Program-made: the position numbers and the translations under genes | Assembly (NCBI GenBank): GCA_958295735.1 | Contig: OY282369.1 | Coordinates: 2,580,983 to 2,644,982 of the forward strand | Origin: an uncultured Candidatus Cenarchaeum sp. | GTDB lineage: Archaea > Thermoproteota > Nitrososphaeria > Nitrososphaerales > Nitrosopumilaceae | Direction: 5' to 3' | Length of the DNA stretch: 64,000 nt | Shown here: positions 27,766-62,234 of the stretch, in pieces | Layout: every line of letters begins with the position of its first letter | How positions within the stretch are numbered: the stretch's first letter is position 1 | The notes under the pieces: model-generated | What the model saw: the letters and a program-made list of their open reading frames with translations, nothing else | Databases searched by the model: none | What the model was told of the DNA's origin: nothing

Positions 27766-29610
27766 TCAGGACTCCATCTTTCGCACGGCGCTGCGCATCG
27801 AGTCTTTGTCGCCTTCGGCCATTATGCCGGACGACTCGATGTACTTCTCGTAGCCCATGCGTATCCGCCCGTGCTCGTGGTTTCTTATGTTGTCGAGCAC
27901 CGTGGTTATGGTGCACTCGTCGGTTCCGCCGAACTTGCTCCCACGCAGCCCCCTGCCCACCATCTGCTCGTACAGGATCCTGCTGCTGGTGGGGCGCGCG
28001 ATGATCACCGAGTCCGTCCTGGGGGCGTCGAACCCCGTGGTCAGGACCTGGTAGTTGCACAAGACGCGTATGCGCCCCTCCCTGAACGAGTTGACGTACT
28101 CGCTCCTCGCCCCGTACCGCGTGCCGCCGGTCACGGCGGCGCTTGTGATCCCTCTGTCGTTGAGTACCTTGGACATCATGAGCGCCTGGTTGACGTTCGT
28201 GCCGAAGAAGAGCACGGTCTTGCCGGCGTCCGCCTCGCCGGATATGGCCTCGAACACGGCCATGTTCCTTTGCGTGTCCATCCCGACCTTGTCAAGCAGC
28301 GAGGAAGGGAGCTGGCTCATCCCCGACTCGTAGTCCGACTCGCGCTCGCTCATCCTGAACGACGCGGACGTTTCGAGCGGCCTGAACGTGGGGCGGGACA
28401 GGACGCCGCGTCTCGTCAGCTCGTCGACCACGTGGTCCCACTCTTTCCACTGCCCGTTGAACCGCCCGACTGGCTCGTGGCGGGGGTCGGGCGCGAGCAC
28501 GTTTCTGTTGAACCTGCGCAGGAGGCTCCCCGTTTCGCCTTCCGCCGTGCGGAAGGGGGTCGCCGTCAGGCCGACCAGCGGGGCGCCGCCGGGGGCGCCG
28601 GCTCGCCTCGGCAGGCCCAGTGATGCGAGCACCTTTCTGTAGGTGCGCGACACGGCGTGATGCGCCTCGTCGACCACGACCAGTCCCAGCTCCTCGCCCA
28701 CGCGCCCGAGTCTGCCTGGCGCCCTGCCGCGTTCGCCCTTGGTGTATTCGTGCAGCTTGCCTATTCCCGCCACGACGATCCCCCTGTCGAAGGGATCCGG
28801 CATGCCCCTGCGGCCCCACACGCGGTGTATCCTGAATTCCTCGCCGCCGGCCCCCTTCTCCTCCCACAGCTGCTTGAAGCACTGGACGGCCTGCTCGCAG
28901 AGCTCCTCCTTGTCCGCGATCCACAGCGCCCAGCGGATCCCCCCGGGCCTCCTTTTCCAGTAGTCCACGATCGCCTCGGCCGCAATCCTGGTCTTGCCGG
29001 CGCCAGTGGGCAGCCTCAGTATGCATCTGCCTCCGCCGTCGATCGCCTCGGCCAGCTGCGACTTGAGGTTGAGCTGGAAGTCTTTGAGCGTACCGAGCGG
29101 GGGCCGCTTTTCCGCAATCTCGACGTTCTCGGGCTCCGGCGGCGACGGGATGCCGGAGAACTGGGGAGGGAACCCCAGCTCCCTCACGAACCGCCGCGCC
29201 CACGAGCCGCCCGGCCTCCAGCGCTTCTGCCTCAGCCTCCCGAGCGCCCTCCCGGCCGCCTCCCCGCCCCAGCCTCCGTCCTTCGCGCCGGACAGCCGCT
29301 TGATCGTCCACGAATCCTTGGCGCGCACTGCATCGAGGATCATTGAGCGCAGTTTCTTGCCGCCGCCACCTTCGAAAAGCTCTATTCCCGCCATGTCGAC
29401 GAGCAGCCGCGGAAGCCTCCCGTCGTCCACCTCGTCGTGCTCGACGGGCGCCCCCGTCTTCAGCGACAGGTAGAGCTTTTCGCATCCGGGAAAGCTGCTG
29501 TCCACGTACCTCCTGAAGCTGCCCCTGGCCGCCTCGTCCGTTCCCAGCCAGTACTCGAGCCGGGATGCCGCCTCGTCCTTGTCGCTTTCCGTGAGGGCGG
29601 ATGCGGCCAT
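27766..29610 (-). CDS. DEAH-box SF2 helicase of DrmAB module 1
   Basis: The 614-residue product is a superfamily 2 helicase/translocase of the type III restriction-subunit (ResIII) kind. After a roughly 170-residue N-terminal region come RLPTGAGKTR (Walker A, about residue 200), VVVDEAHHA (about 312), GLTATPF (about 345) and QMVGRGLRG (motif VI, about 551). It lacks the long C-terminal extension of the homologous helicase in module 2 (53090-56983). It follows drmB on the same strand after a 457-base gap of GC-rich sequence, so it may have its own promoter or be the distal gene of the operon. By context it is a motor for a DISARM-like anti-invader system. It is not of the SNF2 type described as DrmD. 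Confidence 0.85.
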   Translation of the reverse strand: MAASALTESDKDEAASRLEYWLGTDEAARGSFRRYVDSSFPGCEKLYLSLKTGAPVEHDEVDDGRLPRLLVDMAGIELFEGGGGKKLRSMILDAVRAKDSWTIKRLSGAKDGGWGGEAAGRALGRLRQKRWRPGGSWARRFVRELGFPPQFSGIPSPPEPENVEIAEKRPPLGTLKDFQLNLKSQLAEAIDGGGRCILRLPTGAGKTRIAAEAIVDYWKRRPGGIRWALWIADKEELCEQAVQCFKQLWEEKGAGGEEFRIHRVWGRRGMPDPFDRGIVVAGIGKLHEYTKGERGRAPGRLGRVGEELGLVVVDEAHHAVSRTYRKVLASLGLPRRAGAPGGAPLVGLTATPFRTAEGETGSLLRRFNRNVLAPDPRHEPVGRFNGQWKEWDHVVDELTRRGVLSRPTFRPLETSASFRMSERESDYESGMSQLPSSLLDKVGMDTQRNMAVFEAISGEADAGKTVLFFGTNVNQALMMSKVLNDRGITSAAVTGGTRYGARSEYVNSFREGRIRVLCNYQVLTTGFDAPRTDSVIIARPTSSRILYEQMVGRGLRGSKFGGTDECTITTVLDNIRNHEHGRIRMGYEKYIESSGIMAEGDKDSMRSAVRKMES

Positions 29611-35211: not shown

Positions 35212-35212
35212 G

Positions 35213-37390: not shown

Positions 37391-37412
37391 GGATCGGCGT
37401 CTCGGCACATAC

Positions 37413-43081: not shown

Positions 43082-43084
43082 ACC

Positions 43085-43792
43085 GTGCAGCGGTACGGCG
43101 AGCTCGTGGACCAGCTGCCGGATATCAAAAGCATGGGGTACGTCAGGACCCGCAGGGCGGGAAACACCGGGATCGGCAAGACGCTGGAGGATCTCCTGGG
43201 AGTGAGGGAAAACAACTTCGCCGGGCCCAACGGCCACGACACGGAGCTGAAGTCGGGCAGGAAGAAGTCGGGCAGCATGCTGACGCTGTTCACCAAGTCG
43301 CCCCTCCCGCCCGGGATCAACGGGCAGCTGGTCGAAAGGTTCGGCAGGCCGGCGGGGAAGGGGGCGAAGCTCCACACAACCGTGAACGCCGTGTCGAGGA
43401 ACACGCTGCACGGCAGCCCCGCGTTCAAGGTCGAACTGCGCGATGCCAGCATCGAGCTGGGCCACGGCGGGTACGGGGATCTCCAGCCGCCGTACTGGAA
43501 CAGGCTCGATCTGGAAAGGGCGTTCTACAGGAAGTACCCGCGGCACCTCCTGTACGTCAAGGCGGACTGCCGCGGGGCGGGGAAAAGCGAGGAGTTCCAC
43601 TACAACGAGGCGTGGCTCATGTCGGGATTCAGCTTTGCGCGCCTCGTGGAACTGCTCGAGAGCGGCCACGTCTTGATCGACATCAGGCTGGGCAGGTACC
43701 CGAACGGCAAGCTGCACGACCACGGGACCGGCTTCAGGGTGAAGCCGGATTACCTGGACACGTGCTTCGGGAACCGCGAGAGAATCATGTAG
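43085..43792 (+). CDS. MvaI/BcnI-family type II restriction endonuclease
   Basis: The 235-residue product matches the length of the MvaI/BcnI family (about 240). Near the N-terminus it has IGKTLEDLLGVRENNFAGPN followed by HDTELK, with the catalytic Asp52-x-Glu54-x-Lys56 arrangement, then KKSGSMLTLFTKSP. The middle shows KVELRDASIEL and LDLERAFYRKY. MvaI and BcnI cut within CCWGG and CCSGG; the target here cannot be read from the sequence. A GTG start at 43085 follows the methyltransferase stop by three bases, so the two genes are co-transcribed and coupled. Confidence 0.85.
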   Translation: MQRYGELVDQLPDIKSMGYVRTRRAGNTGIGKTLEDLLGVRENNFAGPNGHDTELKSGRKKSGSMLTLFTKSPLPPGINGQLVERFGRPAGKGAKLHTTVNAVSRNTLHGSPAFKVELRDASIELGHGGYGDLQPPYWNRLDLERAFYRKYPRHLLYVKADCRGAGKSEEFHYNEAWLMSGFSFARLVELLESGHVLIDIRLGRYPNGKLHDHGTGFRVKPDYLDTCFGNRERIM

Positions 43793-44818: not shown

Positions 44819-45427
44819 ATGGGGGAGGGGCCGTGCGCCGGCGCATGCGGCAGGTACAGGGCGGGAAGGCCCGCCTCCGGCAGGAGGTACGAGGCCGGCC
44901 AGGCGCTGTGCCAGGCCTGCGGCGTGTGGCTGGACCGCCGCGGCGCGCGCCTGGAGGCCGGCGGCCCCGCGGGCTGGCGCTGCAGGTGCTGCGGATGCAG
45001 GATGTACAGGCAGTCCAGGGACGTGCCGTACGGGAGGAGGAAGGGCGGCGTCGCCCCCCGCGCAGACTTGGGGCACTTTAACAGGCGGCGCGCGCGCCTG
45101 CTCGGGGCGCTGGGCGGAGCGATAGCCGAGAAGGGCTCCGGCAGCGCGCGCAGCCTGCGCGAGCTGCTGCTCCGCAGGATGCCCGCGGGGCTGATCGGGT
45201 CGGAGTTCGGGGCGGAAACGGGCCGGTTGCTGGAGCTCGCGCACTCGGACCTGCCCAACAGGGTCTCGCTGATAGCCGAGCTCGAGATGCTCAGGCTCCT
45301 CGCCGGGAAGGTCCCCACGGGGAGGGAGATCGAGGCCGCCGGCCGGTTCAGCGTGGCGGAGTACGAGGCCGAGTTCGGCTCGCTGGGGCGCCTGCTGGAG
45401 ATGCTGGGGTACGGCCCGCGGGGCTGA
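44819..45427 (+). CDS. Zinc-finger protein with homing-endonuclease-associated repeat, paralogue 1
   Basis: The 202-residue product begins with a Cys-rich half: CAGAC, CQACGVWLDRR and CRCCGCRMYRQSRD, likely two zinc-binding knuckles. A helical spacer (LGALGGAIAEKGSGSARSL) leads to NRVSLIAELEMLRLLAGKVPT and AAGRFSVAEYEAEFGSLGRL. That end fits the homing-endonuclease-associated repeat, a small DNA-binding helical unit of the form PT-x(n)-F-S-x-x-x-Y-x-x-x-F-G-S. The TATA-like GATAAATACC sits 24-33 bases before the ATG, as in both paralogues. Compared with paralogue 3 the C-terminal helix-turn-helix-like domain is missing; its remnant lies after the stop. The role is probably DNA binding in the defence island. 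Confidence 0.75.
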   Translation: MGEGPCAGACGRYRAGRPASGRRYEAGQALCQACGVWLDRRGARLEAGGPAGWRCRCCGCRMYRQSRDVPYGRRKGGVAPRADLGHFNRRRARLLGALGGAIAEKGSGSARSLRELLLRRMPAGLIGSEFGAETGRLLELAHSDLPNRVSLIAELEMLRLLAGKVPTGREIEAAGRFSVAEYEAEFGSLGRLLEMLGYGPRG

Positions 45428-45637: not shown

Positions 45638-46030
45638 ACGTCGGCCCGCGGGCGACTCGGCGGAGGGAAATACCGGAGCGCGGGGCTTGGGGCGTCGGGA
45701 AGCCCAGACTGCCTCACGCCGTCTTGCCGCGCCGTCCCGCCATCGCCCCCGGGCGTCCCGCCATCGCCCCCGGGCGCGGCAGGGACGCGTCATACGGCAG
45801 GGTTCGGGAGACGGGCGGCCTCTGCCGCCTTTCGGTTGCGGCGCGGCCTCTGCCGCCTTTCGGTTGCGGCGCGGCCTCTGCCGGGTGTGCTTCCCCGTGG
45901 CCCCGCCGGACACGCCGGTATTCACCGCCTTTCAGATGCGGCGCGGCCTCCGCTTCCACCAGCATTTCGGCCGCGCGCACGCGCCGGAGGGCCTAGACTG
46001 CCCGCCGACGCGCCGCAGGCACACGGGGAT

Positions 46031-46229
<199 letters not shown>

Positions 46230-46240
46230 GGACCTAGACT

Positions 46241-47069: not shown

Positions 47070-50000
47070 ATGGGCATACGGGAACAGGCGCAAATACGCC
47101 AGATATTGGTCGATGGGATAGAGGCAGACATCGTCGGGCCACACGCGGACGACGAGGTTCTCACCATTGACCCAAAATACGAGTATCTTGCAGGAGTCAT
47201 TTCTCCGAGGTATTCGGAACACTATGTGGAGGCAGAGATCCGCGAAGATGGAAGCGAGGAAGACGACGACGACAACACCGGGACGTTTTCTCACACGTCG
47301 TATGATCGCCTATTCAATCCCTCGTCCTTTGGACTGACGTGCAATCTTGACCCCGACACAAAGAAGATAACCGCCCTGATCACATACGGAACGTATAGTG
47401 CCATAAAGGACGAGAATTCCAGACGCACGAAGTACCGCCGCACCCCAAAATCAGAAAAATTCGATCTGGCCATAATTGAGGGCGAACACGAAACGAAATT
47501 CGACACGCATCCAAAATTCATGATCAAGTATACCGTAAAACGCGAAGACTATCGCGTCCTTCTAGATTTTTACGTCATCAATGGATGCGACGTGGGTTCT
47601 AAGAACGCGCTAGCCAACTTGATGTTCCAACCCAAGATAGTGCTTGAGTCCGGATGCGGCAACTTTCCGTTCTTACACGACGCGGCCAAGCAGGATGCCG
47701 ATCATCAACTAGATGTGCTTTTTAGAGACAAGACGTCGTTCGGAAAAGGCCATCTGTGCGCAGTGACGTGGGATGCGAAAAAAGACGTGGATGGAGCCAC
47801 TGCGCGGCGGATAGAGACTACGTTCGTCCCCCGACAACGCGTCGAACGCGTTTCTCCCGCGACACTGACCAACGAGATCCCGTGTCTAGACATGGTTAAA
47901 CTCGCAGAATGTGCCGACAAGTCAGATCTCGCGGGCATGCTGGGCGAGGTGATCTCGCTGTATTCTGATTGGGTGGACGAAGCCTCCGAGTCGGCAGACG
48001 GCCTGGGAAAAGATCGAGACGCGGTGATGCGAAACATCAGCCGATGCAGAAATGCCGCGGCCAGGATGCGCAAGGGGGTTGATGCCATCATTGGCGACAA
48101 CAACGTGTTTGACGCGTTCCGATTCGCCAACATGGCAATTGCGTGGCAACAAACAATGAGTCGCTGGGTCAAATCCAACGCCACCACGGGAGAGGTCGTT
48201 GGGCACGGTCCGCTAGAACCGGATCGCGGCAACTGCAGGTGGCGACTCTTCCAGATCGCGTTCATACTGCTTAGTATCGAGTCGGTGGCGAACCCCAGAT
48301 CGGAGGATCGCGACGTGGCGGATCTCCTGTGGTTTCCGACCGGAGGCGGGAAGACCGAGGCGTATTTGGGGCTGGTCGCGTTCGTGATCGCGCATCGGAG
48401 ACTGTGTGGCAAAAATGACGAGGGGGAACTAACCTCCGAAAGCCTGGGCACGTCGGTTTTGATGCGGTACACCCTGAGACTCTTGACGGTTCAGCAGTTT
48501 CAGCGCGCGGCCACTCTGATGTGCGCGTGCGAAAAGATCCGATCGGGGGACGTTTCTCAATGGGGCAGGATTCCATTCCAAGTGGGGTTGTGGGTGGGCG
48601 GCGAAGTCACCCCAAACAAGCGCGAAAAAGGAGATACATCCGCGCTGCAAATGAAATCCCAGCTACGGGGGAGCAGCATCGCGCAAATCCACAGCCACAA
48701 CCCGTACATCTTAATCAATTGTCCGTGGTGCGGCACGAAGATCACCCCGTCCGATGGCGAGGTGTCGGGCGAGCCCAAGCAGTGGAGACTGTACTGCGGC
48801 AGGAATAGATGCATGTTTTCCAAGCATCTCGACGTAAACAAGGACATGTCACTTCCGGTGGTCCTGGTGGACGAGGACGTCTACTCGAGGTGTCCGTCCA
48901 TGATCGTTTCGACGGTAGACAAGTTTGCGCAGATTTCCTGGAAGGCGGAATGCAGATCCATATTCGGCATGGTCACAAAATACTGCGATCGTTGCGGGTT
49001 CTATGACCCAAAAACATCCTCGGACCAGCACGCTCACAGAATGAGTGCACACGAGAGCAACAACTTCAGCACCGACGTGAAGCTCAAGCCGCCAGAGCTC
49101 ATAATACAGGACGAGCTGCACTTGATTTCCGGAGCGCTCGGATCCATGGCCAGCATATACGAAACCGCGATCGATCACCTCTGCACCGGCGATGGTGGAA
49201 TCAGGCCCAAGGTGATAGCATCCACCGCCACCACCCGGCGGGCGGAAGATCACATACAGAAACTGTTTTGCCGCAAAACCGAAGTCTTCCCGCCGCAAGT
49301 GAGCAGATTCGGGGACACGTTTTTTTCCAAGGCGGATTCGGGACTCGACGAGGACAGGATCTACCTGGGAGTTCTCGGTACCGGAAAAAGCGGCCTGAAC
49401 GCCATGAACCGCGTGTCCGCGGTCATTCTTCGCAACATTCGCCGGCTCGCAGAATCTGGGAAGTTTGACATTGATGATCTAGATCCGTACGTTACGCTCG
49501 TTTCGTACTTTAACACACTGAAAAGCCTCGGGGGCGCAAGCATGGGGTTCAAGGACTCCGTCCCGGAGCTCATATCGCGAATCCAAAACCGGTTTGAGGC
49601 TGGAATGTCCGCCACAAGCAACGAGGCCACTCCTCCCGATCGCAGAAGAATCCCCCCATCGGCAACCATACTCAAAAGGCAATTCTATGAACTATACACC
49701 GAAGAGCTCACCTCCAGAAAATCATCCGGAGAAATACCGGACATCCTGCGCAAGCTGGAGATTACGCTGGGGGAGGGACCGCTCGATCTCCTTCTGGCCA
49801 CAAACATGCTTTCCGTCGGAGTCGACATATCGAGGCTCGGCGTCATGGTTGTCGGCGGACAGCCCAAGGGCAACTCCGAATACATACAGGCTACCGGCAG
49901 AATTGGACGCCGGAATCCGGGCCTCGTCGTGACCATATACTCGTACACCAAGCCACGGGACGTGTCCCATTATGAAGATTTTAAAATCTACCACAAGACG

Positions 50001-50483
50001 CTCTTCAAAAAAGTCGAAGCTGCCAGCATCACACCGTTTACGGCCAGAACGCGCGACACGGCGCTGTTTGGCGTGTTTGTGGGAATGTTGAGGATGAAGA
50101 ACGCGATGCTTTCTCAAAACAAGGATGCGAACAGATTCGATCCGGGGGATCGAGATCAGCAACGCATGTTGGATGAAGTGAGGGGCGTGATAGAAAACAG
50201 GGTACGAGAGATCGCCCCCGAGGAACGCGACGGCGCCATGAATGATCTTGACGGGCTGATCAACGCGTGGGACAACTACAGAAAAAGACATCACGACCTT
50301 CTGCTCTACGCCAACGTTTACAGCGAAAAGTCCTCCAAGGGACGCTCGGAGTCCTACTGGTACCTCCTCAAATCTCACCAGGAATCCCGGGAAGAGCTGA
50401 TGTGGGTCCCGACATCACTACGCAGCGCGGAGCAAGAGCAACGGCTGTTTTACGCCCACGGTGAGCACGAACATGGACGTTGA
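47070..50483 (+). CDS. drmA: DISARM helicase DrmA (second copy)
   Basis: The 1137-residue product is a full-length paralogue of the DrmA at 31831-35211. It has DLLWFPTGGGKTEAYLGLVA (about residue 418), CPWCGTKI, YSRCPSMIVSTVDKFAQISW, CDRCGF, IIQDELHLISGALGSMAS (about 679), ASTATTRRAE (about 717), SVGVDISRLGV and QATGRIGR. Apart from these motifs the two DrmA proteins differ widely, especially in the first 300 residues. Base composition is clearly less GC-rich than in copy 1, so the two operons have separate origins or ages. It is the first gene of an operon with drmB, a small ORF and a large helicase, and has a strong TATA box and operator-like inverted repeat upstream. Confidence 0.94.
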   Translation: MGIREQAQIRQILVDGIEADIVGPHADDEVLTIDPKYEYLAGVISPRYSEHYVEAEIREDGSEEDDDDNTGTFSHTSYDRLFNPSSFGLTCNLDPDTKKITALITYGTYSAIKDENSRRTKYRRTPKSEKFDLAIIEGEHETKFDTHPKFMIKYTVKREDYRVLLDFYVINGCDVGSKNALANLMFQPKIVLESGCGNFPFLHDAAKQDADHQLDVLFRDKTSFGKGHLCAVTWDAKKDVDGATARRIETTFVPRQRVERVSPATLTNEIPCLDMVKLAECADKSDLAGMLGEVISLYSDWVDEASESADGLGKDRDAVMRNISRCRNAAARMRKGVDAIIGDNNVFDAFRFANMAIAWQQTMSRWVKSNATTGEVVGHGPLEPDRGNCRWRLFQIAFILLSIESVANPRSEDRDVADLLWFPTGGGKTEAYLGLVAFVIAHRRLCGKNDEGELTSESLGTSVLMRYTLRLLTVQQFQRAATLMCACEKIRSGDVSQWGRIPFQVGLWVGGEVTPNKREKGDTSALQMKSQLRGSSIAQIHSHNPYILINCPWCGTKITPSDGEVSGEPKQWRLYCGRNRCMFSKHLDVNKDMSLPVVLVDEDVYSRCPSMIVSTVDKFAQISWKAECRSIFGMVTKYCDRCGFYDPKTSSDQHAHRMSAHESNNFSTDVKLKPPELIIQDELHLISGALGSMASIYETAIDHLCTGDGGIRPKVIASTATTRRAEDHIQKLFCRKTEVFPPQVSRFGDTFFSKADSGLDEDRIYLGVLGTGKSGLNAMNRVSAVILRNIRRLAESGKFDIDDLDPYVTLVSYFNTLKSLGGASMGFKDSVPELISRIQNRFEAGMSATSNEATPPDRRRIPPSATILKRQFYELYTEELTSRKSSGEIPDILRKLEITLGEGPLDLLLATNMLSVGVDISRLGVMVVGGQPKGNSEYIQATGRIGRRNPGLVVTIYSYTKPRDVSHYEDFKIYHKTLFKKVEAASITPFTARTRDTALFGVFVGMLRMKNAMLSQNKDANRFDPGDRDQQRMLDEVRGVIENRVREIAPEERDGAMNDLDGLINAWDNYRKRHHDLLLYANVYSEKSSKGRSESYWYLLKSHQESREELMWVPTSLRSAEQEQRLFYAHGEHEHGR

Positions 50484-52365
50484 GCGCGGCGGTGGAACTC
50501 CCGACAGTCCGGGAAAGTTAAGACCCGCGCAGCTGATTACCACTTATGGTCCCGGCGCCATCATGCAGACCGCGTACGATTCCGTGATGATCATGGGGAT
50601 AGATTTTTGGGGAAACAAGAATTCATACATACGGAAGCATCACATGTATTTGAAAAAAATCACCAAATGCGATCATTTCAGAATGCCGTACGCGGAACAG
50701 CACAAGAGGACGATCGCGTGCACGTCATACCCGCGATGGGGGTACTGCACCATATGCAAATGGCTGCAGCCACACAAGGGTTCGCCGGGCTCTACCGGCC
50801 GCTTCAGTTGCAAAGCCCATCCCGGAAAACCGCTACTGCCGGCCCGACTCCTCGTGGTGTGCCGGAGGGGGCATGTGGGTGAGTTCCCGTGGAAGGAATG
50901 GGCACACAGCAAGAGCGAATCGGGCGTATGCGATTCCCCCAAACTGTTGTGGAAGCGTGGAAACCTGTCTAATTCCATCACCGATTCTACCGTGGAATGC
51001 GCCACCTGCCGCGCCAAAAACCGCCTCACGCACGCATTGTCTCCACAGGGGGTGGAACTGCGCAAGAACGGCGCTGGATACACACACGAATGCGGCGGAG
51101 AATTGCCGTGGTTGGACAGGCAAGAAACGTGCAGAAAAATTTCCGATGCGCCGGCTACCAGAGGATCGAGCACGGAGATCCCTGTAGGCATGCTGGCCAG
51201 AGCCACCAGCCTGTATTACGCCAAGATAACATCCGGCATAATCATACCCCAGCTAGCCCACCCGATCGTCAGGTTCCTGCAGTCGGATGACTACAAATCG
51301 TACACGAACAAACGTATGTACAAGGAACTGAGCAGAGAGAGGCTGGCGGAAGAGATACTGAACGATCATGAAGATTTTAAGGCGAAGCATTACACGGCCG
51401 CCGACTTTGTAGGCTGGATGGAAAAAACGGACGAGCGAAGCACTGCAGAAGTGAACACCGAGGATGATCTCAAGCGCATAGAATACGACGATCTCCTCAG
51501 CAGCGACGATTTTGATGACGAGCGAGACGAAAAGGAGATAAAGATCTGCAATGTCCGGCTTGATGGCGACGACCGCGAGTTCTTTGATGCGGTACGAAGG
51601 CTTGACATAGTCACCTCAATAGCGGTGGCAAGGTATTTCACCCGCCTCAGGCCGCCGGGAGAGGAGCACGACAGCAAGCACGCCGCCAGCGCGACCATCT
51701 GCAAACTTGAAGTTGGCGGAAAAACTCTGTCGGGCAACGAATACAGACGGAACCGCTGGTTGCCGTGCGTGGTTAAAAAGGGGGAAGGAATATTTGTAAC
51801 TTTTAACCGCGAGCTCGTTGAATCGTGCCTGAGCCATAACAAGACGCGGGGACGGCTAGACGCCATCATTGAGAGCCACAACAAGTGGGGAATTAAGTCC
51901 GGTTGGCCCGGATTGGCGAACATCGACAGGCAATACGTCCTCCTGCACTCCTTGTCGCACATGCTGATCAGAGAACTTGCGCTGGAATCCGGATACGGCG
52001 AGGCCTCAATATCAGAACGCATCTACTCCTCCAAGCACATGTGCGGAGTGATGATCTATACCACCAGTTCTGGTGAAGGTAGTCTGGGCGGCCTTGCACG
52101 GCAAGCAAAATGCGGATTTTCCAAAATTCTCAGGAACGCCCTGGAAAAGTCACAGACATGCTCCCGCGATCCCATGTGCGTGAGCTATGACCCAGCCCAG
52201 GCGCGGCAAAATGGAATACCACTCCACATGGCGCAAAACGGATCCGCCTGCTACGGCTGCCTGATGCTGCCAGAAACCAGCTGTGAAAACTTCAACATGC
52301 TGCTAGACCGGCAGATCTTCATCAACAGAACTTTCGGCGAAGGACGGAAGGTTGACCATGGTTAG
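50461..52365 (+). CDS. drmB: DISARM protein DrmB (DUF1998, second copy)
   Basis: The product has up to 634 residues. The start is either the GTG at 50461 or the ATG at 50473, both inside the last codons of drmA, so translation is coupled. It begins with RPAQLITTYGPGAIMQ, and has CTICKWL, CRRGHVGEFPWKEWAH, CATCRAKN, HECGGELPW and an acidic middle (DDLLSSDDFDDERDEKE). The DUF1998 part has LLHSLSHMLIREL, SISERIYSS, GSLGGLARQ and CYGCLMLPETSCEN. These are the same signature elements as in copy 1. It is expected to form a complex with DrmA on DNA. Confidence 0.93.
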   Translation: MSTNMDVERGGGTPDSPGKLRPAQLITTYGPGAIMQTAYDSVMIMGIDFWGNKNSYIRKHHMYLKKITKCDHFRMPYAEQHKRTIACTSYPRWGYCTICKWLQPHKGSPGSTGRFSCKAHPGKPLLPARLLVVCRRGHVGEFPWKEWAHSKSESGVCDSPKLLWKRGNLSNSITDSTVECATCRAKNRLTHALSPQGVELRKNGAGYTHECGGELPWLDRQETCRKISDAPATRGSSTEIPVGMLARATSLYYAKITSGIIIPQLAHPIVRFLQSDDYKSYTNKRMYKELSRERLAEEILNDHEDFKAKHYTAADFVGWMEKTDERSTAEVNTEDDLKRIEYDDLLSSDDFDDERDEKEIKICNVRLDGDDREFFDAVRRLDIVTSIAVARYFTRLRPPGEEHDSKHAASATICKLEVGGKTLSGNEYRRNRWLPCVVKKGEGIFVTFNRELVESCLSHNKTRGRLDAIIESHNKWGIKSGWPGLANIDRQYVLLHSLSHMLIRELALESGYGEASISERIYSSKHMCGVMIYTTSSGEGSLGGLARQAKCGFSKILRNALEKSQTCSRDPMCVSYDPAQARQNGIPLHMAQNGSACYGCLMLPETSCENFNMLLDRQIFINRTFGEGRKVDHG

Positions 52366-53089: not shown

Positions 53090-56000
53090 ATGGCTTTCGC
53101 GGCGCCCGATCACGATGATCCAAAACGCGGCATCGTCAGCAGGTTCATGGACCTGTACGTTGCCGCGGACGATCTGCGCGCCGTTTTCGACTCGTTCTTC
53201 ACCGACAGATCGGCCATCAGGTCGTTGATCGGGATTGACTCAGAATCCAGCAAGGAGCGGATAGCCAGAATACTCGTGGACTACCTGGGGCCTAACTTCC
53301 TCAGCATGGCGGCAGGAAAGAACTACAATACGGGCGGCCACGGCAGAAAGGGCGAAGACGGCAAGTATCTGATCCGCCAGAAACTTCTGGAACAAGTATG
53401 CAACCGGCACGAGGATCCCGAATCGAAAGAACGGGACGTTTTGAGGCGACTCAACGGGGCCATCGGCTCCAGACACGCCGCCCTTGCGGATGTTTCAAGG
53501 GATGCAAGAATCCTACACAAGAAGCCAAAGTCGGAGCTTATGAAGATTCTCCAGTTCCCAGACGTGGTGTTCGAATCGCCGCCCAAGATCAACAAGGAGG
53601 AAGAAACCACAACGGTCAGCAAAAAGCCCCCGCTAAAGCCGCTGTACGACTACCAGACGCAAGCGGTCGTGCGCATACTGGAAATGCTGACGGAACAGAA
53701 CAAGCCAAAGAGGATGCTGATCAGCGTCCCCACCGGAGCAGGCAAGACCCGGCTCACGGTGGAGGCCATCGTAGACTGGATCAACGATCGTAGCATGGGC
53801 AGAACCCCCAATTCCTCCCCGCAGCAGAATCACGGCCGCATCATTTTCTGGTTCGCGTCGACAAACGAGCTCTGCTCGCAAGCCGCGAGCGAGTTCGTCA
53901 ACATATACACGCAGATCGGAATCGGGCGGGAGCCGTTCAACGTGACGCGGTTTTACGGCAGCAAGCGGCGCGACCTCTTTCAAATACTTGAGGAACACCC
54001 GGGCACCCACGTGGTAGTCACCAACACGGAGCATTTCCAGGATGCCATGCAGGCGGAAAAAAAAGCGGGCAGGTACCTCGTGGATCAGTACAGCGAAAGC
54101 GCCTGGTTCGAGAAGATCCGGGGACAGACGGCAGCCATGGTCATCGACGAGGCGCACGAGGCGATAAGCAACACGTACAAGAAACTTCTGGCGGCCATGG
54201 GGTTCGACTTCAGCGGAAGGAACGCGGCGCGCAAATGCGACTACAACCGCTGCGGCATAGTACTGATAGGCCTCACCGCCACGCCATACCGCGGGTCCGG
54301 CAGGCTCGTCGGCGATCAGGACGAAGGGCGGCAAGATCTCGACGAGTTCGCGGAATTCGACGCGAACAAGGATCCGTCCTACTTTGCGCGGCTGGATCGC
54401 AGCACCAAGACAATCCACAAGATGTTCGGACGCGTGTACATACCGCTTCCCAGGAGGGAACACGCGGACTCGCTTCCCGTGCCGATAATAGAAGCTCCCA
54501 CGTACGCGCATTCCGGAGAGCACGTGAAAATCTCCGGCCTCAAGTCGTTCGACAACTTTTCCGACGTGTCGCACGATTGGAAGATCACCGCGTTTGGAAC
54601 GGAACCTGCCGGCTACGCGGAGGCCGTGTTTTACCACCGGTTCGAGGAGTCGGGGACACACAACATCGAGCTTACGGTAACGAACAAGAGCGGCGCGCAA
54701 GATTCCAAAATCCAGCAGATTGCAATATACCCGAAAGACAGGACGAGCGCCGATCGGGGCAACCTCGAAGACAACGAGGAGTTCAACAAGATCCTGCAAA
54801 AAAGGAAAATCCTCTGCAAGATAGTGTATGGAGTGATCGACGGACCCCAACTGGACTGGAACGAAAGCGAGATCAACAGGTGGAGGAAGGGGGGGCTGTC
54901 GGACAAGAACGAGGAGATCATAGAAAACGACATACGGTACAACGAGCACATATGCGAGATAGTGAACAAGTCCATCAGCAAGTATGGGAGGAAGCGGGTG
55001 CTGATATTCGCGAACGGGGTAAGCCACGCGCACAACCTGGCGCTGATCCTGAGCGTCAGATACGGCCTCAGGGCAAAATCGGTGGACGGCAACATGAACG
55101 CGGGCCTGCGCAGGCAGATAATCCACGCGTTTCGAAGGGGCGAGCTCGACGTGCTCTGCAACCACGGCATACTCACGTCAGGATTCGACGTGCCGGAGAT
55201 AGACACGCTTCTGATCTGCAGGACGGTCGGGAGCAACGCCCTGTACACCCAGATGATCGGGAGGGGGCAAAGGGGCGCTATAGTGGGCGGCACCGACGAG
55301 CTGTGGCTGATCACGGCGTACTTCAAAAACGACGTATTCGGGGACGGGGTCAAGCTGGGCTGGGAAGCGCTGGCCGCCAGCTGGGAGAATTTTCCGCCCG
55401 GGATAAGGGAAGACCTGAAGGTCCGAGACAACATGTACGAGGAACCCGGTTCGGGCGAGACGGGGAAGGCCGACAGCCGCGGCGGAAACCGCGAGGCATT
55501 CCAGTGCGAGACGTGCGGCGCCACGGCCCCGAACGCGGAAGGGGCGCGCGCGCTGTTCGGAGTGCACGGCGACGGCCGGGTCACCGCGAAGGCGCTGGAC
55601 GGCGGCGCCTTACCGAAAGACTGCCTCACGTGCAGGGAGATAAAATCGATTGCCGGGAAGACGGACTGCAAGTTCTGCAAGACGCTGGCGGGGGGCCACG
55701 CGTACGATCCGGTCCTGCTCATGATCGCGCAGTTCGCGCTCGATAACCTGGGAAACGCGGCGCCACCAAAATTCCACAACCTGCAGAAGCACCTGCTTGA
55801 AAAATTCCTAAAAAAAGTCCCGTTCGAATTCTTCAGCCCCAGAAACGCATCGGTCCGGATGGCCGAGGATCTTAACTTGATGACGGTTAAGGACAACCTG
55901 GAACTGGAGTTCATGCCCATAGGCGATGCGGCGTCCCTGGAGCGCTTGGTGCGGCGCGCGCTTGATTCGAAGCGATCTGCGGAGAAGATGGGCGCAATCG

Positions 56001-56983
56001 TGGAACGGAACAAAAACACCGACCATGCGCGCACTGCCGCACAGGACGGCATGGATCACTTCTTCATAAATCTCTGCCACATGGGCGGACACGTGCCCAC
56101 ATCCCGGCAGTTTTTCAACGCCCTGTCGAAGGAAGGGCTGCGCGATCAGTTTGAGAGGGAGCACGGATCCAATTACGACAAGTTCCTGCTGGATCGACGC
56201 ATACACCTGAGCGACGACGACGACCTGAAGGATTCGCTCTACGAGGAATATTTCGAAAAGTGCGCCCAGGAAAGGGCGCAGATCACGAGGGAGCAGCTCG
56301 ACAAGCACGGCCAGTACAGGATTTCCGACTACGAGGAAGTGTTCGGATCATTCAGAACATTCCAGCAAACCACGAAGCGCGTGCTTGGGCTGCTCCTCGA
56401 GGAATACGATGCGGGGGCGAACGACACCAACGCGGAGTTCGAGCGCATTAACGAGGATCTGGCGATGCTGCAGGGAAAGATGGGAAAGCCGCTGCATTTC
56501 GACACCATACGGATGCATTCCGCGATAGGGGCACACCGGTACCTGATCCAGACGAAGATCTCATACCTGCGCTACCTGCATCGCTACCGCGGCGGCAGCC
56601 CGGGCAAGTTCCTAAGGCTGGTCACGGAGTTCTTCAGACTCAAAAGGACGCTCGGCCGCGCGCCCACGTACGGCCAATTCACGCGCCTTACGCACGTGAC
56701 CCCCACCGCACATCTGGGCGATCTCTTCGACTTCGACTACGGAAAATTCCTGAGGCTGCTGAACGAGACGGCGCACGATGCCGGCGAGGAGTACGCGGAG
56801 AGCATGAGGCGGGCAACGCTGGAAAAGATCGTGAAGATACGCGACGAAGCCGGCATCAAGCAGGCCAACGACACCATCGATGCCGCGGCGAACGGGTACG
56901 ACGAACTGTCAACTTCCATCAAGGCGTGGTGGCCCGACAGCAAGGAACTGAAGCGCTCTCTCTCGTCTAGTACTTCGCCATGA
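53090..56983 (+). CDS. Large DEAH helicase with PKD-like insert and DNA-binding C-terminus
   Basis: The 1297-residue product has a roughly 180-residue N-terminal domain. Helicase lobe 1 has ISVPTGAGKTRL (about residue 214), VIDEAHEAISNTYKK (about 352) and GLTATPYRG (about 394). A PKD-like beta domain follows (about 465-548), ending FEESGTHNIELTVTNKSGAQ. Lobe 2 has FANGVSHAHNLA, GFDVPEIDTLLI and QMIGRGQRG (about 722). A zinc-ribbon-like region (CETCGA, CLTC, CKFC, about 805-870) precedes a long helical tail with repeats such as HGQYRISDYEEVFGSF and GRAPTYGQF. The core matches the 614-residue helicase of module 1; the tail resembles the stand-alone zinc-finger/repeat proteins at 44819, 58289 and 59053. 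It ends by overlapping the convergent SDR gene by 17 bases. Confidence 0.88.
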   Translation: MAFAAPDHDDPKRGIVSRFMDLYVAADDLRAVFDSFFTDRSAIRSLIGIDSESSKERIARILVDYLGPNFLSMAAGKNYNTGGHGRKGEDGKYLIRQKLLEQVCNRHEDPESKERDVLRRLNGAIGSRHAALADVSRDARILHKKPKSELMKILQFPDVVFESPPKINKEEETTTVSKKPPLKPLYDYQTQAVVRILEMLTEQNKPKRMLISVPTGAGKTRLTVEAIVDWINDRSMGRTPNSSPQQNHGRIIFWFASTNELCSQAASEFVNIYTQIGIGREPFNVTRFYGSKRRDLFQILEEHPGTHVVVTNTEHFQDAMQAEKKAGRYLVDQYSESAWFEKIRGQTAAMVIDEAHEAISNTYKKLLAAMGFDFSGRNAARKCDYNRCGIVLIGLTATPYRGSGRLVGDQDEGRQDLDEFAEFDANKDPSYFARLDRSTKTIHKMFGRVYIPLPRREHADSLPVPIIEAPTYAHSGEHVKISGLKSFDNFSDVSHDWKITAFGTEPAGYAEAVFYHRFEESGTHNIELTVTNKSGAQDSKIQQIAIYPKDRTSADRGNLEDNEEFNKILQKRKILCKIVYGVIDGPQLDWNESEINRWRKGGLSDKNEEIIENDIRYNEHICEIVNKSISKYGRKRVLIFANGVSHAHNLALILSVRYGLRAKSVDGNMNAGLRRQIIHAFRRGELDVLCNHGILTSGFDVPEIDTLLICRTVGSNALYTQMIGRGQRGAIVGGTDELWLITAYFKNDVFGDGVKLGWEALAASWENFPPGIREDLKVRDNMYEEPGSGETGKADSRGGNREAFQCETCGATAPNAEGARALFGVHGDGRVTAKALDGGALPKDCLTCREIKSIAGKTDCKFCKTLAGGHAYDPVLLMIAQFALDNLGNAAPPKFHNLQKHLLEKFLKKVPFEFFSPRNASVRMAEDLNLMTVKDNLELEFMPIGDAASLERLVRRALDSKRSAEKMGAIVERNKNTDHARTAAQDGMDHFFINLCHMGGHVPTSRQFFNALSKEGLRDQFEREHGSNYDKFLLDRRIHLSDDDDLKDSLYEEYFEKCAQERAQITREQLDKHGQYRISDYEEVFGSFRTFQQTTKRVLGLLLEEYDAGANDTNAEFERINEDLAMLQGKMGKPLHFDTIRMHSAIGAHRYLIQTKISYLRYLHRYRGGSPGKFLRLVTEFFRLKRTLGRAPTYGQFTRLTHVTPTAHLGDLFDFDYGKFLRLLNETAHDAGEEYAESMRRATLEKIVKIRDEAGIKQANDTIDAAANGYDELSTSIKAWWPDSKELKRSLSSSTSP

Positions 56984-57824
56984 TCTCCGCGATCGCGCCG
57001 TCCATCTTCCCGCAGTCCCCGCGGTTGTGGTACGTGCTGTCGATGAGGTACCTGGCGTCCGAACCTACCACGTACCGGCACTCCGCGCCGCCCCTGCCGA
57101 CCAGATCGGCCACCAGGCGGGCGATCTCGACGGGGTCCGTCCATTTTTCCTTCTTTATCCGATCGACCACGGACTTCATTTCGTCCGTCTCGCGCGCGTA
57201 CCGCGACTCGTACGACATCCTCGCCCTTCGCATGTTTTCGAAGAACTTCGTGTTCACTATGCCGGCCTCTATGAGGCACACGTCTATGTTGCGGGGCCCG
57301 AGTTCCCTGCGCAGTGACTCCGTGAATCCCTCGATCCCGAACTTTGATATGCAGTAGGCGGACGACAGCTGGAATCCCACCTTCCCCGCGACCGAGCTCA
57401 TGTTTATGATCAACCCCCTCCGGCCGCGCATGTGGGGGATCGTGTTTTTCGTCAGGTATATCGGGCCCATCAGGTCGGTGTTTATCTGGTTCTGGATCTC
57501 GCTCCAGGTGAGATCTTCAAGCGAGCCCATCACCATAAAGCCGGCGTTGTTGAAGAGCGCATCGATTCTTCGGCTTTTTTCCACCACGGCCGAAAGCGCA
57601 TCGTCCACGGAGCTGGTCGACGACACATCCATCTCCAGCACCGTCACGTTGCCAAGGCCGTCCTTTTCTACGCGGTCCTTGAGCTGCGTACTGCGCGCCT
57701 TGTTCCTCACCGTGGCGTAGACTTCGTGGCCCATTTTAGCGCACATGATGGCAGATTCCAACCCGATGCCGCTCGAGCATCCGGTTACCACGACCACTCG
57801 CTCCTCGCCGTCCTCACCGGACAA
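56967..57824 (-). CDS. Short-chain dehydrogenase/reductase (classical SDR)
   Basis: The 285-residue product is an NAD(P)-dependent oxidoreductase with VVVVTGCSSGIGLE (TGxxxGxG cofactor motif), NNAGFMVMGSLE, INMSSVAGKVGFQLSSAYCISKFG (Ser and the YxxxK catalytic pair) and EAGIVNTKFF. The substrate cannot be told. No ATG stands near the conserved start. A TTG at 57824 gives MSGEDGEERVVVVTG and is the most likely start; a GTG nine codons later is possible. A TATA-like patch (57872-57886) leaves a leader of about 30 bases. Just upstream of it lies repeat R2, also found before the GHKL ATPase gene. Its stop lies inside the end of the convergent helicase gene. Confidence 0.88.
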   Translation of the reverse strand: MSGEDGEERVVVVTGCSSGIGLESAIMCAKMGHEVYATVRNKARSTQLKDRVEKDGLGNVTVLEMDVSSTSSVDDALSAVVEKSRRIDALFNNAGFMVMGSLEDLTWSEIQNQINTDLMGPIYLTKNTIPHMRGRRGLIINMSSVAGKVGFQLSSAYCISKFGIEGFTESLRRELGPRNIDVCLIEAGIVNTKFFENMRRARMSYESRYARETDEMKSVVDRIKKEKWTDPVEIARLVADLVGRGGAECRYVVGSDARYLIDSTYHNRGDCGKMDGAIAEIMAKY

Positions 57825-57871
57825 CCTTCCGCCTCCCCACGATCTGGAGCATTCGTGGGGGGCGGTGTTAC

Positions 57872-57953
57872 GCGTATTAGAATATTGCCTACGCCGTAGT
57901 CCATCCCATAACTCGGATTTCGGGCGTGAAAAACCGCCCGCCGCGGCCGCCGG
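57872..57953. repeat. SDR promoter region with dispersed repeat R2, copy b
   Basis: 57872-57886 is AT-rich (CAATATTCTAATAC on the minus strand) and is the likely promoter. 57898-57953 matches R2 at 39251-39307, including TAGTCCATCCCA(T/C)AA and GGCGTGAAAAACCGCCC. Orientation and spacing to the promoter are the same at both sites. Confidence 0.6.
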
Positions 57954-58288
57954 ATCGCCGCATCCGGGGCGGCTGTGGCGCGCCCGGCGCCGCGGGAGGG
58001 GCGGGAAGCACGCGTTGCGGTGCAGTGCGGCCGGCTCATGGGCGGCTGTAGCGCGCCGGGCGCCGCGGGAGGGGGAGGGCCGCCGCCGGGAGCGGGGCAT
58101 CGCGCCGCTCGGGGCCCGCTGTTCCCCCGCGGACGCGAGCCCGGACTCGGTGTGCCCGCGCGCCGCGCAGCCCGCCTGCCGTGCCCACTGCCGCCGCGGC
58201 GGGGCCGTCTTTCGCGCACAAGATCCGGGTTGCGGGACGTACAGGCGCCGCATATGCGGATAAATACCGCCGCCGCCCCCGCGCTCCC
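57954..58288. other. GC-rich gap with short direct repeat and promoter of zinc-finger paralogue 2
   Basis: Contains GGCGGCTGT(G/A)GCGCGCC units at about 57970 and 58032. GGATAAATACC at 58258-58268 is the TATA-like box of the next gene. No other gene seen. Confidence 0.45.
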
Positions 58289-59008
58289 GTGGGGAAGGGG
58301 CCGTGCGCCGGCGCATGCGGCAGGTACGCGGCCGGGAAGCCGGCCGCCGGAAGGAGGCACGAGGCCGGCCAGGCGCAGTGCAAAACGTGCGCCGTGTGGC
58401 TGGACCGCCGCGGCGCGCGCCTGGCAGCCCGCGGCCCGGCGGGGCCCGCGGAATGGCGCTGCAGGTGCTGCGGGCACGGGATATACAGCCAGTCCAGGGA
58501 CGCGCCGCGCGGGAGGAGGAAGGACGGCGGCGCCGACCTGGAGCACTTCGACAAGTACCGCGCGCGCATGCTCGGGGCCCTCGGCGGGGCGATCGCCGAG
58601 AAGGGCGCCGGCAGCGCGCGCAGCCTGGAAGAACTGCTGCCCAGCGGGGCGCCCAGGGGGATGATCGAGTCGGAGTTCGGGGCGGGCCTGGATGCGCTCC
58701 TGGAGCTGGCGCACTCGGACGCGCCCAACAAGGTCTCCCTGATAGCGGAACTCGAGATGCTGAAGTTCCTCGCGGGTGAGGTCCCCACGGCGGCGGAGAT
58801 CGAGGCCGCCGGCAGGTTCAGCGAGGCTGAGTACGAGGCCGAGTTCGGCTCGATGGGGCACCTGCTGGAGAGGCTGGGGTACGACCCGTGGCACAGGGAG
58901 CGCCGGCGGGGCGGCCGCCGGCGGGCCCCGGCCGCGGAGGCCGTGGGGGCGGCCGCCGGATCGCCGCGCCGGGGGCGGCCGCGGCCCCCCGGGCGCCGCG
59001 TGTGGTGA
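58289..59008 (+). CDS. Zinc-finger protein with homing-endonuclease-associated repeat, paralogue 2
   Basis: The GTG at 58289 aligns with the ATG of paralogue 1 and has the same GATAAATACC box 21-30 bases upstream. The 239-residue product has CAGACGRY, CKTCAVWLDRR and CRCCGHGIYSQSRD, then LGALGGAIAEKG, NKVSLIAELEMLKFLAGEVP and AAGRFSEAEYEAEFGSMGHL. After YDPWHRERR the sequence becomes Arg/Gly/Pro-rich and out of register with paralogue 3, so the C-terminal helix-turn-helix domain is lost here too. It lies 44 bases before paralogue 3, which has its own TATA box. Confidence 0.75.
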   Translation: MGKGPCAGACGRYAAGKPAAGRRHEAGQAQCKTCAVWLDRRGARLAARGPAGPAEWRCRCCGHGIYSQSRDAPRGRRKDGGADLEHFDKYRARMLGALGGAIAEKGAGSARSLEELLPSGAPRGMIESEFGAGLDALLELAHSDAPNKVSLIAELEMLKFLAGEVPTAAEIEAAGRFSEAEYEAEFGSMGHLLERLGYDPWHRERRRGGRRRAPAAEAVGAAAGSPRRGRPRPPGRRVW

Positions 59009-59052: not shown

Positions 59053-59991
59053 GTGGGAGATGCGGGCAGGGCGGGGCCGTGCGCCGGAACGTGCGGCAGG
59101 TACGCGGCGGGAAAGCCGGCCACCGGAGGGAGGTACGAGGCAGGCCAGGCGCTGTGCAAGGCGTGCGACGTGTGGCTGGACCGCCGCGGCGCGCGCCTGA
59201 AGGCGGGGGGCCGGGAGCGGGCCGGGCCCGCGGGCTGGCACTGCAGGTGCTGCGGGTACAGGATATACAGGCAGTCCAGGGACGCGCCGCGCGGGAAGAG
59301 GCGGGACGCGGGGGACGGGGCCGACCTGGAGCACTTCGACAAGCACCGCGCGCTCATGCTCGGGGCGCTGGGCGGGGCGATCGCGGAAAGGGAGGCGGGC
59401 GGTAGCGCGCGCAGCCTCGACGAGCTGCTTCCGAGCTGGGCCACCCGGGAGACGATCGAGTCGGAGTTCGAGGCCGGCATGGACTCAATGCTGGAGCTCG
59501 CGCACTCGGACATGCCCAACAAGGTCTCCCTGATAGCGGAACTCGAGATGCTGAAGTTCCTCGCCGGGGAGGTCCCCACGGCGGCGGAAATCGAGGCCGC
59601 CGGCAGGTTCAGCGAGGAGGAGTACGAGGCCGAGTTCGCCTCTATGGGGCACCTGCTGGAGAGGCTGGGGTACGACCCGTGGCACAGGGAACGCCGGCCG
59701 CCGGGAGCGCCGCGCGACGGGGGGGAAAGGAGGCGCCCGCGGGCCGCGGAGGATCTGGAGAGGGCGAACGCGATCGTCGCCGGCGCGCTCCGCGCGGTAA
59801 AGGCCGCGGGCGGCCGGTGGATCGCCGCGTCGGAGGTGGCCGCGTCGCTCGGGGTCCCCGAAAAGGACTCGACGGCTCTGGCTTCGAGGCTGGCCAGCAT
59901 GGACGGCATCATCTCGGAGGCGCGCGGGGGCGACGGCGGCCCGACCCCGAGGAAGGCGTTCCTCAAGTACGTCGGCCCCGCCGCGTACTGA
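59053..59991 (+). CDS. Zinc-finger protein with homing-endonuclease-associated repeat and C-terminal HTH, paralogue 3
   Basis: This 312-residue product is the complete form of the family. The Cys-rich N-terminus has CAGTCGRY, CKACDVWLDRR and CRCCGYRIYRQSRD. The spacer, AELEMLKFLAGEVPT and GRFSEEEYEAEFASMGHL follow as in the paralogues. A C-terminal domain with IVAGALRAVKAAGGRW, IAASEVAASLGVPEKDS and LASRLASMDGIISEA looks like a winged helix-turn-helix. The start is a GTG with a GATAAATA box about 30 bases upstream. Zinc knuckles, the repeat and the HTH together make a sequence-specific DNA-binding role likely. A link to the helicase of DrmAB module 2, whose tail has the same kind of repeats, is inferred. 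Confidence 0.78.
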   Translation: MGDAGRAGPCAGTCGRYAAGKPATGGRYEAGQALCKACDVWLDRRGARLKAGGRERAGPAGWHCRCCGYRIYRQSRDAPRGKRRDAGDGADLEHFDKHRALMLGALGGAIAEREAGGSARSLDELLPSWATRETIESEFEAGMDSMLELAHSDMPNKVSLIAELEMLKFLAGEVPTAAEIEAAGRFSEEEYEAEFASMGHLLERLGYDPWHRERRPPGAPRDGGERRRPRAAEDLERANAIVAGALRAVKAAGGRWIAASEVAASLGVPEKDSTALASRLASMDGIISEARGGDGGPTPRKAFLKYVGPAAY

Positions 59992-60434: not shown

Positions 60435-62234
60435 GTGCGAAAGATGTGGCAGAACAGGCAGCCGATCGCATTGAATCTCACCAGCGTGTCATTTGAAAAT
60501 TTTAGGAGTTTCAAAGACAAGACGGAGATTCCACTCACGCGCATCACCTACCTTATAGGCCCGAACGGAGCAGGGAAATCCAACGTTTTCAAAGGCATTG
60601 ACATGATGAAGAATATCATCACCAAGGACAACCTTGACTTCAGAAAAGAAGATCATTTTGACCAAAACTCAGATGCGCCTGCCTACCTTTCATTTATCGC
60701 GTTGCTTCCCGCAGACGTGCGCTCTGCCTTGTTGGAAAAGGCAACCATGCACGATCACAAAGATGTGGACCTTAACACGACCAAGATATTCCAATGCGTA
60801 AAATACGAGGTGTCGTTTATGAGGAATACTAAGTATCGAGAGCAAATATCCCTGTCAGATGCGGGCGGTGAATTCCACGTAGTGTGCTATCTTCACCACA
60901 ACAAAGACTCCTACCAATTGGGCGTGATAAATCCCTCCAACGTAAACTTGGATAGAATGGATAAGCGAAACTTTGTGACCCAAGACGCGCCACTTATGAG
61001 TACGAGCGGTTTGGTGCAACACTTCGATCACGGGCTGCACACCGCATTGGTAGATATTTGGTCGTCACTTGCCCGCGTGCCCAACACTAAGAAATCGCCG
61101 CCGGCGGCAAGCGCCGCTGAGGCCACTTCGGTGTCGTACGACGGCAACAATCTGCCAAACGAGCTTCGCACGCTAGACGACGATCGAAGCAAGATAAGGG
61201 AACTCGAGATTCTGCTGAAACGCATTTCATCTAACGAGATCGACAGGATTGCAGTGCCGATACGCGGTAGCAGTCACGTAACAACAGTGACTGAAAAGGG
61301 GCTGGAAAATAAGGTGACGTGGGACATGCTCAGTATAGGGATGCAGAACATGATCATCATGTCCTACATACTATACAGAGCCGATAAGAACATAATCATG
61401 ATCGAAGAGCCAGAAATCCACCTACACGCAAAGGCGCAGAAGAACCTACTCAAACACTTGCGCGAGATGCCACGCGATAAGCAGCTTGTGTTAGAAACGC
61501 ACTCCCCGATATTTGCGAACATCACGCGTGACGAGTCGGTGATTTTGTTGGTCAGAGACAACGGAGTGACTGGTGTCGTGCGGGTGAACGCATCCAACTG
61601 CAACCTGCTCAAGAGGGAAATGGGGATAACCCACGCCGACGCGGTCGGTAACGATCATTTGTGTCTAGTGGAAGGAGAATCCGAACATATCGCGATCCCT
61701 GAGTTCGCAAAGACGATGGGATATGAGACAGGACTTGCCCAGTGGACATGGAGTTTGGGCGGTTGCGGGAATACCAAAAACATCGGCACTTTCTTACAAT
61801 ACATGAAAACGGAAGGTAGGGCCATTTTTCTTCTTCTGGATAAAAACTCCGAAGCGCGGGTGCATGTTGACAAGCTTGTGGGCAAAAACCTACTCTGTAA
61901 GAATCAGTGCCATTTTTTGGAAGGCAACTTTGAAGATCTGTTTCCACACGACATGCTCATAGAGTACACTCGGGACCTGGCTAAGGCAGAAGGCGTAGAG
62001 TTTACCATGTCTGCGCAAGATCTAGATGCGGCCACTCAAGATCGTAGTGCGGCCGATGTGCTTAGTGAAGAGTGGACAAAACTGACAAACCAAAAGTACC
62101 CCAAGGCCGACATGGCTGGGAGACTGGCTACTCTGAGCGAGGATGAGATTCCAAGCAAAGTTGCCGATGTCGTGCGGCTTGTGATGGATGGGCTCGGGAT
62201 CCCTGGTCCGCCTCAAGATGGCGACTCTGGATAA
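60435..62234 (+). CDS. OLD-family AAA ATPase/TOPRIM nuclease
   Basis: The product has up to 599 residues (GTG at 60435; an ATG at 60444 is an alternative). The N-terminal ABC-type ATPase has SFENFRSFKDKTEIPL, LIGPNGAGKSNVFKG (Walker A, about residue 43), MLSIGMQNMIIMS (signature), IMIEEPEIHLHAKAQ (Walker B, about 323) and VLETHSPIF. The C-terminal TOPRIM domain starts with LCLVEGESEHIAIPEFAK (about 410) and has FLLLDKNSEA (about 467), where the usual D-x-D reads D-x-N. OLD nucleases (GajA and retron or solo forms) cut invading DNA. No GajB-like helicase follows. The gene is markedly AT-rich, a sign of recent transfer. Its last codons are the first unit of a 65-bp tandem repeat. Confidence 0.88.
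   Translation: MRKMWQNRQPIALNLTSVSFENFRSFKDKTEIPLTRITYLIGPNGAGKSNVFKGIDMMKNIITKDNLDFRKEDHFDQNSDAPAYLSFIALLPADVRSALLEKATMHDHKDVDLNTTKIFQCVKYEVSFMRNTKYREQISLSDAGGEFHVVCYLHHNKDSYQLGVINPSNVNLDRMDKRNFVTQDAPLMSTSGLVQHFDHGLHTALVDIWSSLARVPNTKKSPPAASAAEATSVSYDGNNLPNELRTLDDDRSKIRELEILLKRISSNEIDRIAVPIRGSSHVTTVTEKGLENKVTWDMLSIGMQNMIIMSYILYRADKNIIMIEEPEIHLHAKAQKNLLKHLREMPRDKQLVLETHSPIFANITRDESVILLVRDNGVTGVVRVNASNCNLLKREMGITHADAVGNDHLCLVEGESEHIAIPEFAKTMGYETGLAQWTWSLGGCGNTKNIGTFLQYMKTEGRAIFLLLDKNSEARVHVDKLVGKNLLCKNQCHFLEGNFEDLFPHDMLIEYTRDLAKAEGVEFTMSAQDLDAATQDRSAADVLSEEWTKLTNQKYPKADMAGRLATLSEDEIPSKVADVVRLVMDGLGIPGPPQDGDSG

Follow-up and report, generated by a model that had tools for sequence, protein, structure and literature searches.

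A PKD-fold domain between the two RecA lobes of a RadD-like helicase encoded beside DISARM genes in a thaumarchaeon

The PKD fold normally belongs to cell surfaces and, to our knowledge, PKD domains have been described almost exclusively outside cells. The window analyzed here, a stretch of 64,000 nucleotides from an uncultured marine Candidatus Cenarchaeum sp., raises the question of whether a genuine domain of this kind lies between the two lobes of a cytosolic helicase and, if so, what it does there. An earlier note had placed a PKD-like beta domain at 54481-54735, within a helicase of a defense locus, and had proposed that it could mediate protein-protein contact or recognize an invader component.

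The helicase, here termed HELpkd, is encoded on the forward strand at 53090..56983 by an open reading frame without internal stops (1297 aa) that matches Pfam ResIII, DEAD and Helicase_C. An N-terminal helical region is present. RecA lobe 1 (residues 184-404; 53639..54301) carries the ResIII match at 184-401 and the motifs GKT (214-220), DEAH (353-356) and TATP (396-399). RecA lobe 2 (residues 560-745; 54767..55324) carries the Helicase_C match at 622-728 and motifs IV (637), V (695) and VI (721). A linker (residues 454-462; 54449..54475), the PKD-fold domain (residues 463-547; 54476..54730) and a second linker (residues 548-559; 54731..54766) precede lobe 2. The noted domain was real, its bounds shifted by about 5 nucleotides over the same stretch, and since it is flanked by motif III (TATP, 396) and motif IV (637), it does sit between the RecA lobes, as had been claimed. 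Hydrophobic stretches of the length that a membrane helix requires were not found in the protein, which is predicted to be a cytosolic helicase.

The best structural relatives of HELpkd were RadD entries, which took ranks 1-7 of the Foldseek search (8h5y, 7r7j and 6jde among them; best 8h5y, E 2.6e-13) with moderate TM-scores (0.42 by target). RadD was also the top NCBIfam model (NF053632), and since its 83 bits fall far under the cut-off of 720 the protein is called RadD-like and not RadD. After lobe 2, a putative zinc finger (C806-x2-C809 ... C845-x2-C848; 55496..55639) was recognized in the alignment, its four cysteines being invariant in all ten PKD helicases described below. About 450 residues lie beyond these cysteine pairs and include a helical-repeat region with a weak Pfam HNH_repeat match at residues 1066-1091 (56285..56362; 0.0032); in one relative the same Pfam model matched at 8.3e-9. 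In the alignment, this C-terminal extension is common to HELpkd and its homologue in genome G018, and is missing from the homologues located away from drmA-drmB, hereafter the orphans, among which the G032 protein has 785 aa.

The identity of the insert was assessed by several sequence comparisons. As an isolated stretch it passed the Pfam cut-offs for PKD_4 (PF18911; E=2e-6, 28.1-28.3 bits, cut-off 27) and PKD (PF00801; 24.1-24.3 bits, cut-off 23.5), while the whole protein remained under both (PKD_4 22.1 bits, PKD 18.6 bits). The F-x-x-x-G-x-H-x-I-x-L-x-V-x-N-x-x-G stretch on which the earlier proposal was built is indeed present in HELpkd. All ten PKD helicases match PKD_4, the best relative at 1.1e-12, and an HMM built from the nine relatives only gave the window insert 44.9 bits, compared with 9.8 for the best of 2000 shuffles. 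When a profile of seven inserts was compared with PDB sequences, the PKDs of the collagenase ColH (4e-22) and of KIAA0319L (AAVR; 1e-13) were retrieved, and phmmer matched the window insert to four repeats in a surface protein of thaumarchaeal origin. The genome of the window contained no PKD_4 match other than this insert with an E of 0.001 or better.

Structure prediction agreed with the profiles. The insert stretch modeled alone with AlphaFold2 formed an eight-stranded beta sandwich (pLDDT 76), where seven strands had been expected. In Foldseek, the ten PDB folds that matched it best were all PKD domains, and AAVR PKD complexes appeared among the fold matches. The strands recurred at 466-547 in a larger, 870-aa AlphaFold model of the helicase, bordered by low-confidence linkers at 454-464 and 551-557 (pLDDT below 50) and, outside these, by helices at 437-446 and 559-571; the pLDDT of the insert itself was only about 45-81 in this larger model. 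Residues 463-547 are a bona fide single PKD-fold domain between the RecA lobes, and sequence and model together show it as a unit predicted to fold by itself, tethered on both sides by flexible linkers.

The domain departs from canonical extracellular PKDs in two features. The WDFGDG turn is typical of collagenase PKDs (PMC4356367); the window copy and all nine relatives keep the tryptophan (W497 in HELpkd) and lack FGDG, and the loop at this site is much longer in five of the ten proteins. Among the calcium-chelating aspartates of the collagenase domains, the window copy retains one of three (D488), and all three are present in five of the nine relatives.

Nine further helicases with a PKD insert at the same place, all thaumarchaeal, were found (G018, G032, G015, L037, L039, L041, L042, L043 and L044) when an alignment of four rows was used as query; the whole HELpkd sequence, used singly as query, gave no match in genome or viral collections. 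Three additional matches of 800 aa (L027-L029) were rejected as members of this group: L028 is a surface protein with repeated PKDs that starts with a signal-like sequence and has a hydrophobic segment at its C-terminus, and L027 and L029 score alike. Plasmid and phage searches by tblastn returned lobe-only RadD-like or other SF2 matches, and the profile of the insert itself detected no PKD in 80 viral RadD-like helicases. The domain was also absent from the 40 other RadD-like helicases, from thaumarchaea and bacteria, placed on a tree of the lobes.

In this tree, calculated with the insert left out, the ten PKD helicases formed one clade (support 95/88) and the presence of the domain required one change; the fine order inside the clade is less sure because some branches are long, that of the window (1.57) among them. 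All clade members found here retain the insert. Since the ten proteins share the PKD, it was probably acquired once and kept, and the lobe phylogeny is most simply read as a single acquisition in a thaumarchaeal ancestor. Two RadD-like helicases without PKD from the same genome as the window (L016 and L017) belong to the sister clade; on inspection of the sequence, each is directly paired with a GHKL-ATPase-like gene.

The insert has diverged more than its surroundings, with a mean pairwise identity of 0.41 compared with 0.58 and 0.56 for the two lobes, and its loop varies in length by some 70 residues among the relatives. Seven residues (G483, S486, W497, F518, G522, L528 and V530) are nevertheless invariant in the ten proteins, whose overall identity to the window protein is 26-30%. 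In close pairs, omega was 0.04-0.34 for the insert, with aligned columns that take in part of the variable loop, and 0.02-0.17 for the lobes. Judged from these ratios, the insert is under purifying selection, though faster-changing than the lobes.

The defense setting of the helicase, also claimed beforehand, was supported by the genes upstream. DISARM consists of DrmA, DrmB and DrmC, with DrmD added in class 1 and DrmE in class 2. In module 2 of the window, a short form of drmA (47070..50483; NCBIfam NF038325, 1013 bits, cut-off 950) and drmB (50461..52365; NF038324, 382 bits, cut-off 240) adjoin each other upstream of HELpkd on the same, forward strand. Three of the ten PKD helicases lie near drmA-drmB: that of the window, that of G018, where drmA, drmB, drmC and the helicase form a single run, and that of a marine group I single cell (L044), where drmA-drmB-drmC is convergent with the PKD helicase and a methyltransferase-like gene is also found. 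With the G018 DrmC as query, no DrmC was found in the genome of the window, which speaks against a drmC hidden elsewhere in it; DrmC has been reported as non-essential in DISARM (PMC9142583). The DrmAs of the three PKD-helicase loci form one clade (100/100), and those beside a RadD-like helicase lacking the PKD, in module 1 of the window and in genome G001, form a separate one (100/99). Context and congruent clades together show the helicase as a putative third motor of DISARM in one lineage, encoded with DrmA and DrmB.

Module 1, the second DISARM-like module of the window, spans 23462-37408 on the reverse strand. It comprises a two-HATPase (GHKL) protein (35213-37408), drmA (31831-35211), drmB (30068-32098), a RadD-like helicase paralogue adjoining drmA/drmB (27766..29610; Pfam ResIII/DEAD/Helicase_C, no PKD) and an Eco57I-type methylase (23462-26326). 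A set matching this module, plus drmC, is carried by G001, and its helicase likewise has no PKD. A third drmA/drmB locus of the same genome (L134; G000:C1:1219000-1237000) belongs to another DrmA lineage and has no RadD-like helicase nearby. In a survey of the phylum, DrmB was detected at 11 loci in nine of 398 genomes; the remaining loci with a readable neighborhood, several of them on short contigs, contained no RadD-like helicase.

Several other genes surround module 2. An N6/N4 methylase (41639-43078) precedes its drmA by 4 kb on the same strand, beside an MvaI/BcnI-family restriction endonuclease (Pfam 5.6e-42), the two forming a type II pair at 41639-43792 (+). A long tandem DNA repeat at about 45993-46240, between the modules, reads Gly-Gly-Ser or Ala-Ala-Pro depending on the frame. 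Three similar cysteine-rich, zinc-ribbon-like ORFs flank the module (44819-45427, 58181-59008 and 59053-59991, all +), two of them with weak HNH_repeat matches as in the C-terminal region of HELpkd. Further downstream, an AAA_15/OLD-like ATPase with a TOPRIM-like region (60435-62234, +) is related to defense ATPases of the GajA/AriA type. A short-chain dehydrogenase-like gene follows the PKD helicase directly and in convergent orientation in the window (56967-58316, -) and in G018 (L040:10881-11735, -), and adenylosuccinate-lyase-like and PP-loop genes are near the helicase locus in G018 and L044, which suggests that these loci share a genomic place.

The seven orphans are found in genomes in which no match to DrmB was obtained, although these genomes may be incomplete, and four of the seven have the same chromosomal neighbors. 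In the lobe phylogeny the orphans fall inside the group of DISARM-linked PKD helicases, an arrangement that rests on few branches; because of this nesting, a loss of DrmAB with retention of the PKD fits the data.

The reading that we favor, with modest confidence, is that the PKD is a rigid docking module, tethered by linkers at the interlobe hinge of a RadD-like helicase, inserted once and serving a general helicase role. Placed in the interlobe linker of an SF2 DNA helicase/translocase, between motif III and motif IV, the domain would grip DNA or a DNA-bound protein during the ATP-driven opening and closing of the lobes, and docking of the partner or DNA would thereby be coupled to lobe movement. 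In the DISARM-linked lineage, the helicase may act on DNA that DrmAB has loaded, by processing or marking it. Since the orphans keep the PKD without DrmAB, the domain probably binds chiefly to DNA, to its own helicase or to some general partner on DNA, and not solely to DrmAB. The same observation, together with the absence of the PKD from the DISARM-linked paralogue in the same genome, made a general helicase role more likely than one specific to DISARM or to an invader. On these comparisons, the insert probably serves the helicase itself and not a DISARM partner only. The faster change of the insert and the variation of about 70 residues in its loop count against a docking module and are compatible with a passive spacer. 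A near-neutral insertion acting only as such a spacer would need no more than the single origin seen and would accommodate the variable loop, and no conserved surface patch was demonstrated; it seems unlikely, however, in view of the seven core PKD residues invariant in ten divergent proteins, an omega well below 1 and the lack of any loss in the clade found here. An artefact of misassembly, or fusion of a neighboring gene, has a negligible probability and was ruled out, as ten genomes share the identical insertion point with uninterrupted frames.

A PKD that served as a dock dedicated to DrmAB (or DrmC), and so recruited the third helicase to the DISARM complex, would explain the operon or neighbor linkage at three loci and the fact that the helicase type tracks the DrmA lineage. 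In the tree of the lobes, the branches of the DISARM-linked members lie outside those of the orphans, and part of the sister clade is linked to DISARM as well, so that the linkage may be ancestral. Nevertheless, this dock is rather unlikely, given that seven orphans in genomes without detected DrmB still carry the PKD and that the module-1 helicases of this genome and of G001, which lie beside drmA-drmB, have none; because of these latter helicases, DISARM linkage does not need the PKD. The proposal of the earlier note, that the domain recognizes an invader component and triggers the helicase, draws on the DISARM context, on the faster change and variable loop of the insert, and on PKD domains being known protein-recognition modules; AAV capsids are bound by PKD domains of a cell-surface receptor, and AAVR complexes were among the fold matches. 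We consider it improbable: omega is well below 1, the orphans, four of them with the same neighbors, resemble standing chromosomal genes more than an arms-race locus, and no viral ligand is known. Its fuller version, a cytosolic recognition module of an antiviral helicase that would bind a protein encoded by a virus, or viral DNA coated with protein, and gate the motor via the hinge, is similarly doubtful; if it is true, archaeal DISARM would include a distinct type whose third helicase is RadD-like.

The genome of the window offers a clean natural comparison for a DNA motor that has kept a PKD, apparently inserted once, between its two halves, since a homologous helicase lacking it is encoded in the other DISARM-like module. 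With this pair of paralogues, the contribution of an Ig-like recognition fold to a helicase can be tested directly. Moreover, one archaeal branch of DISARM appears to have a third helicase of RadD-like type that tracks the lineage of DrmA. In a literature search that covered non-subscription papers and a minority of preprints, no paper was found on a PKD in a helicase or on a RadD-like third DISARM motor; one paper pairing DISARM with "PKD" referred to the plasmid pKD46 and not to the domain.

Among known systems, the DNA repair helicase RadD (E. coli YejH) shares the SF2 core of HELpkd and is its best PDB fold and NCBIfam match, but HELpkd has in addition an N-terminal helical region, the interlobe PKD and a C-terminal repeat region; RadD is not known to carry a PKD. 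The PKDs of the clostridial collagenases ColG/ColH resemble the insert in fold (Foldseek 6.4e-6) and sequence profile (ColH, as above), although they are secreted, bind calcium and have the WDFGDG turn, whereas the insert is predicted to be cytosolic, without the turn and with its calcium ligands partly lost. Module 2 has the drmA-drmB core of DISARM over curated cut-offs, with drmC in two relatives; in place of DrmD or DrmE as extra motor it has a RadD-like helicase with a PKD, which matched neither model in PADLOC or NCBIfam. SF2 helicases of the FANCM/Hef and RIG-I-like types carry an additional domain within or close to the interlobe region, and this domain touches nucleic acid in the course of the ATP cycle; theirs is helical, whereas that of HELpkd is a PKD beta sandwich. 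The Ski2-like helicases Brr2 and ASCC3 contain Sec63 units with an immunoglobulin-like domain. Although these are C-terminal units of an unrelated helicase branch and are not inserted between the lobes, they share with HELpkd an Ig-like beta sandwich inside a cytosolic or nuclear SF2 helicase.
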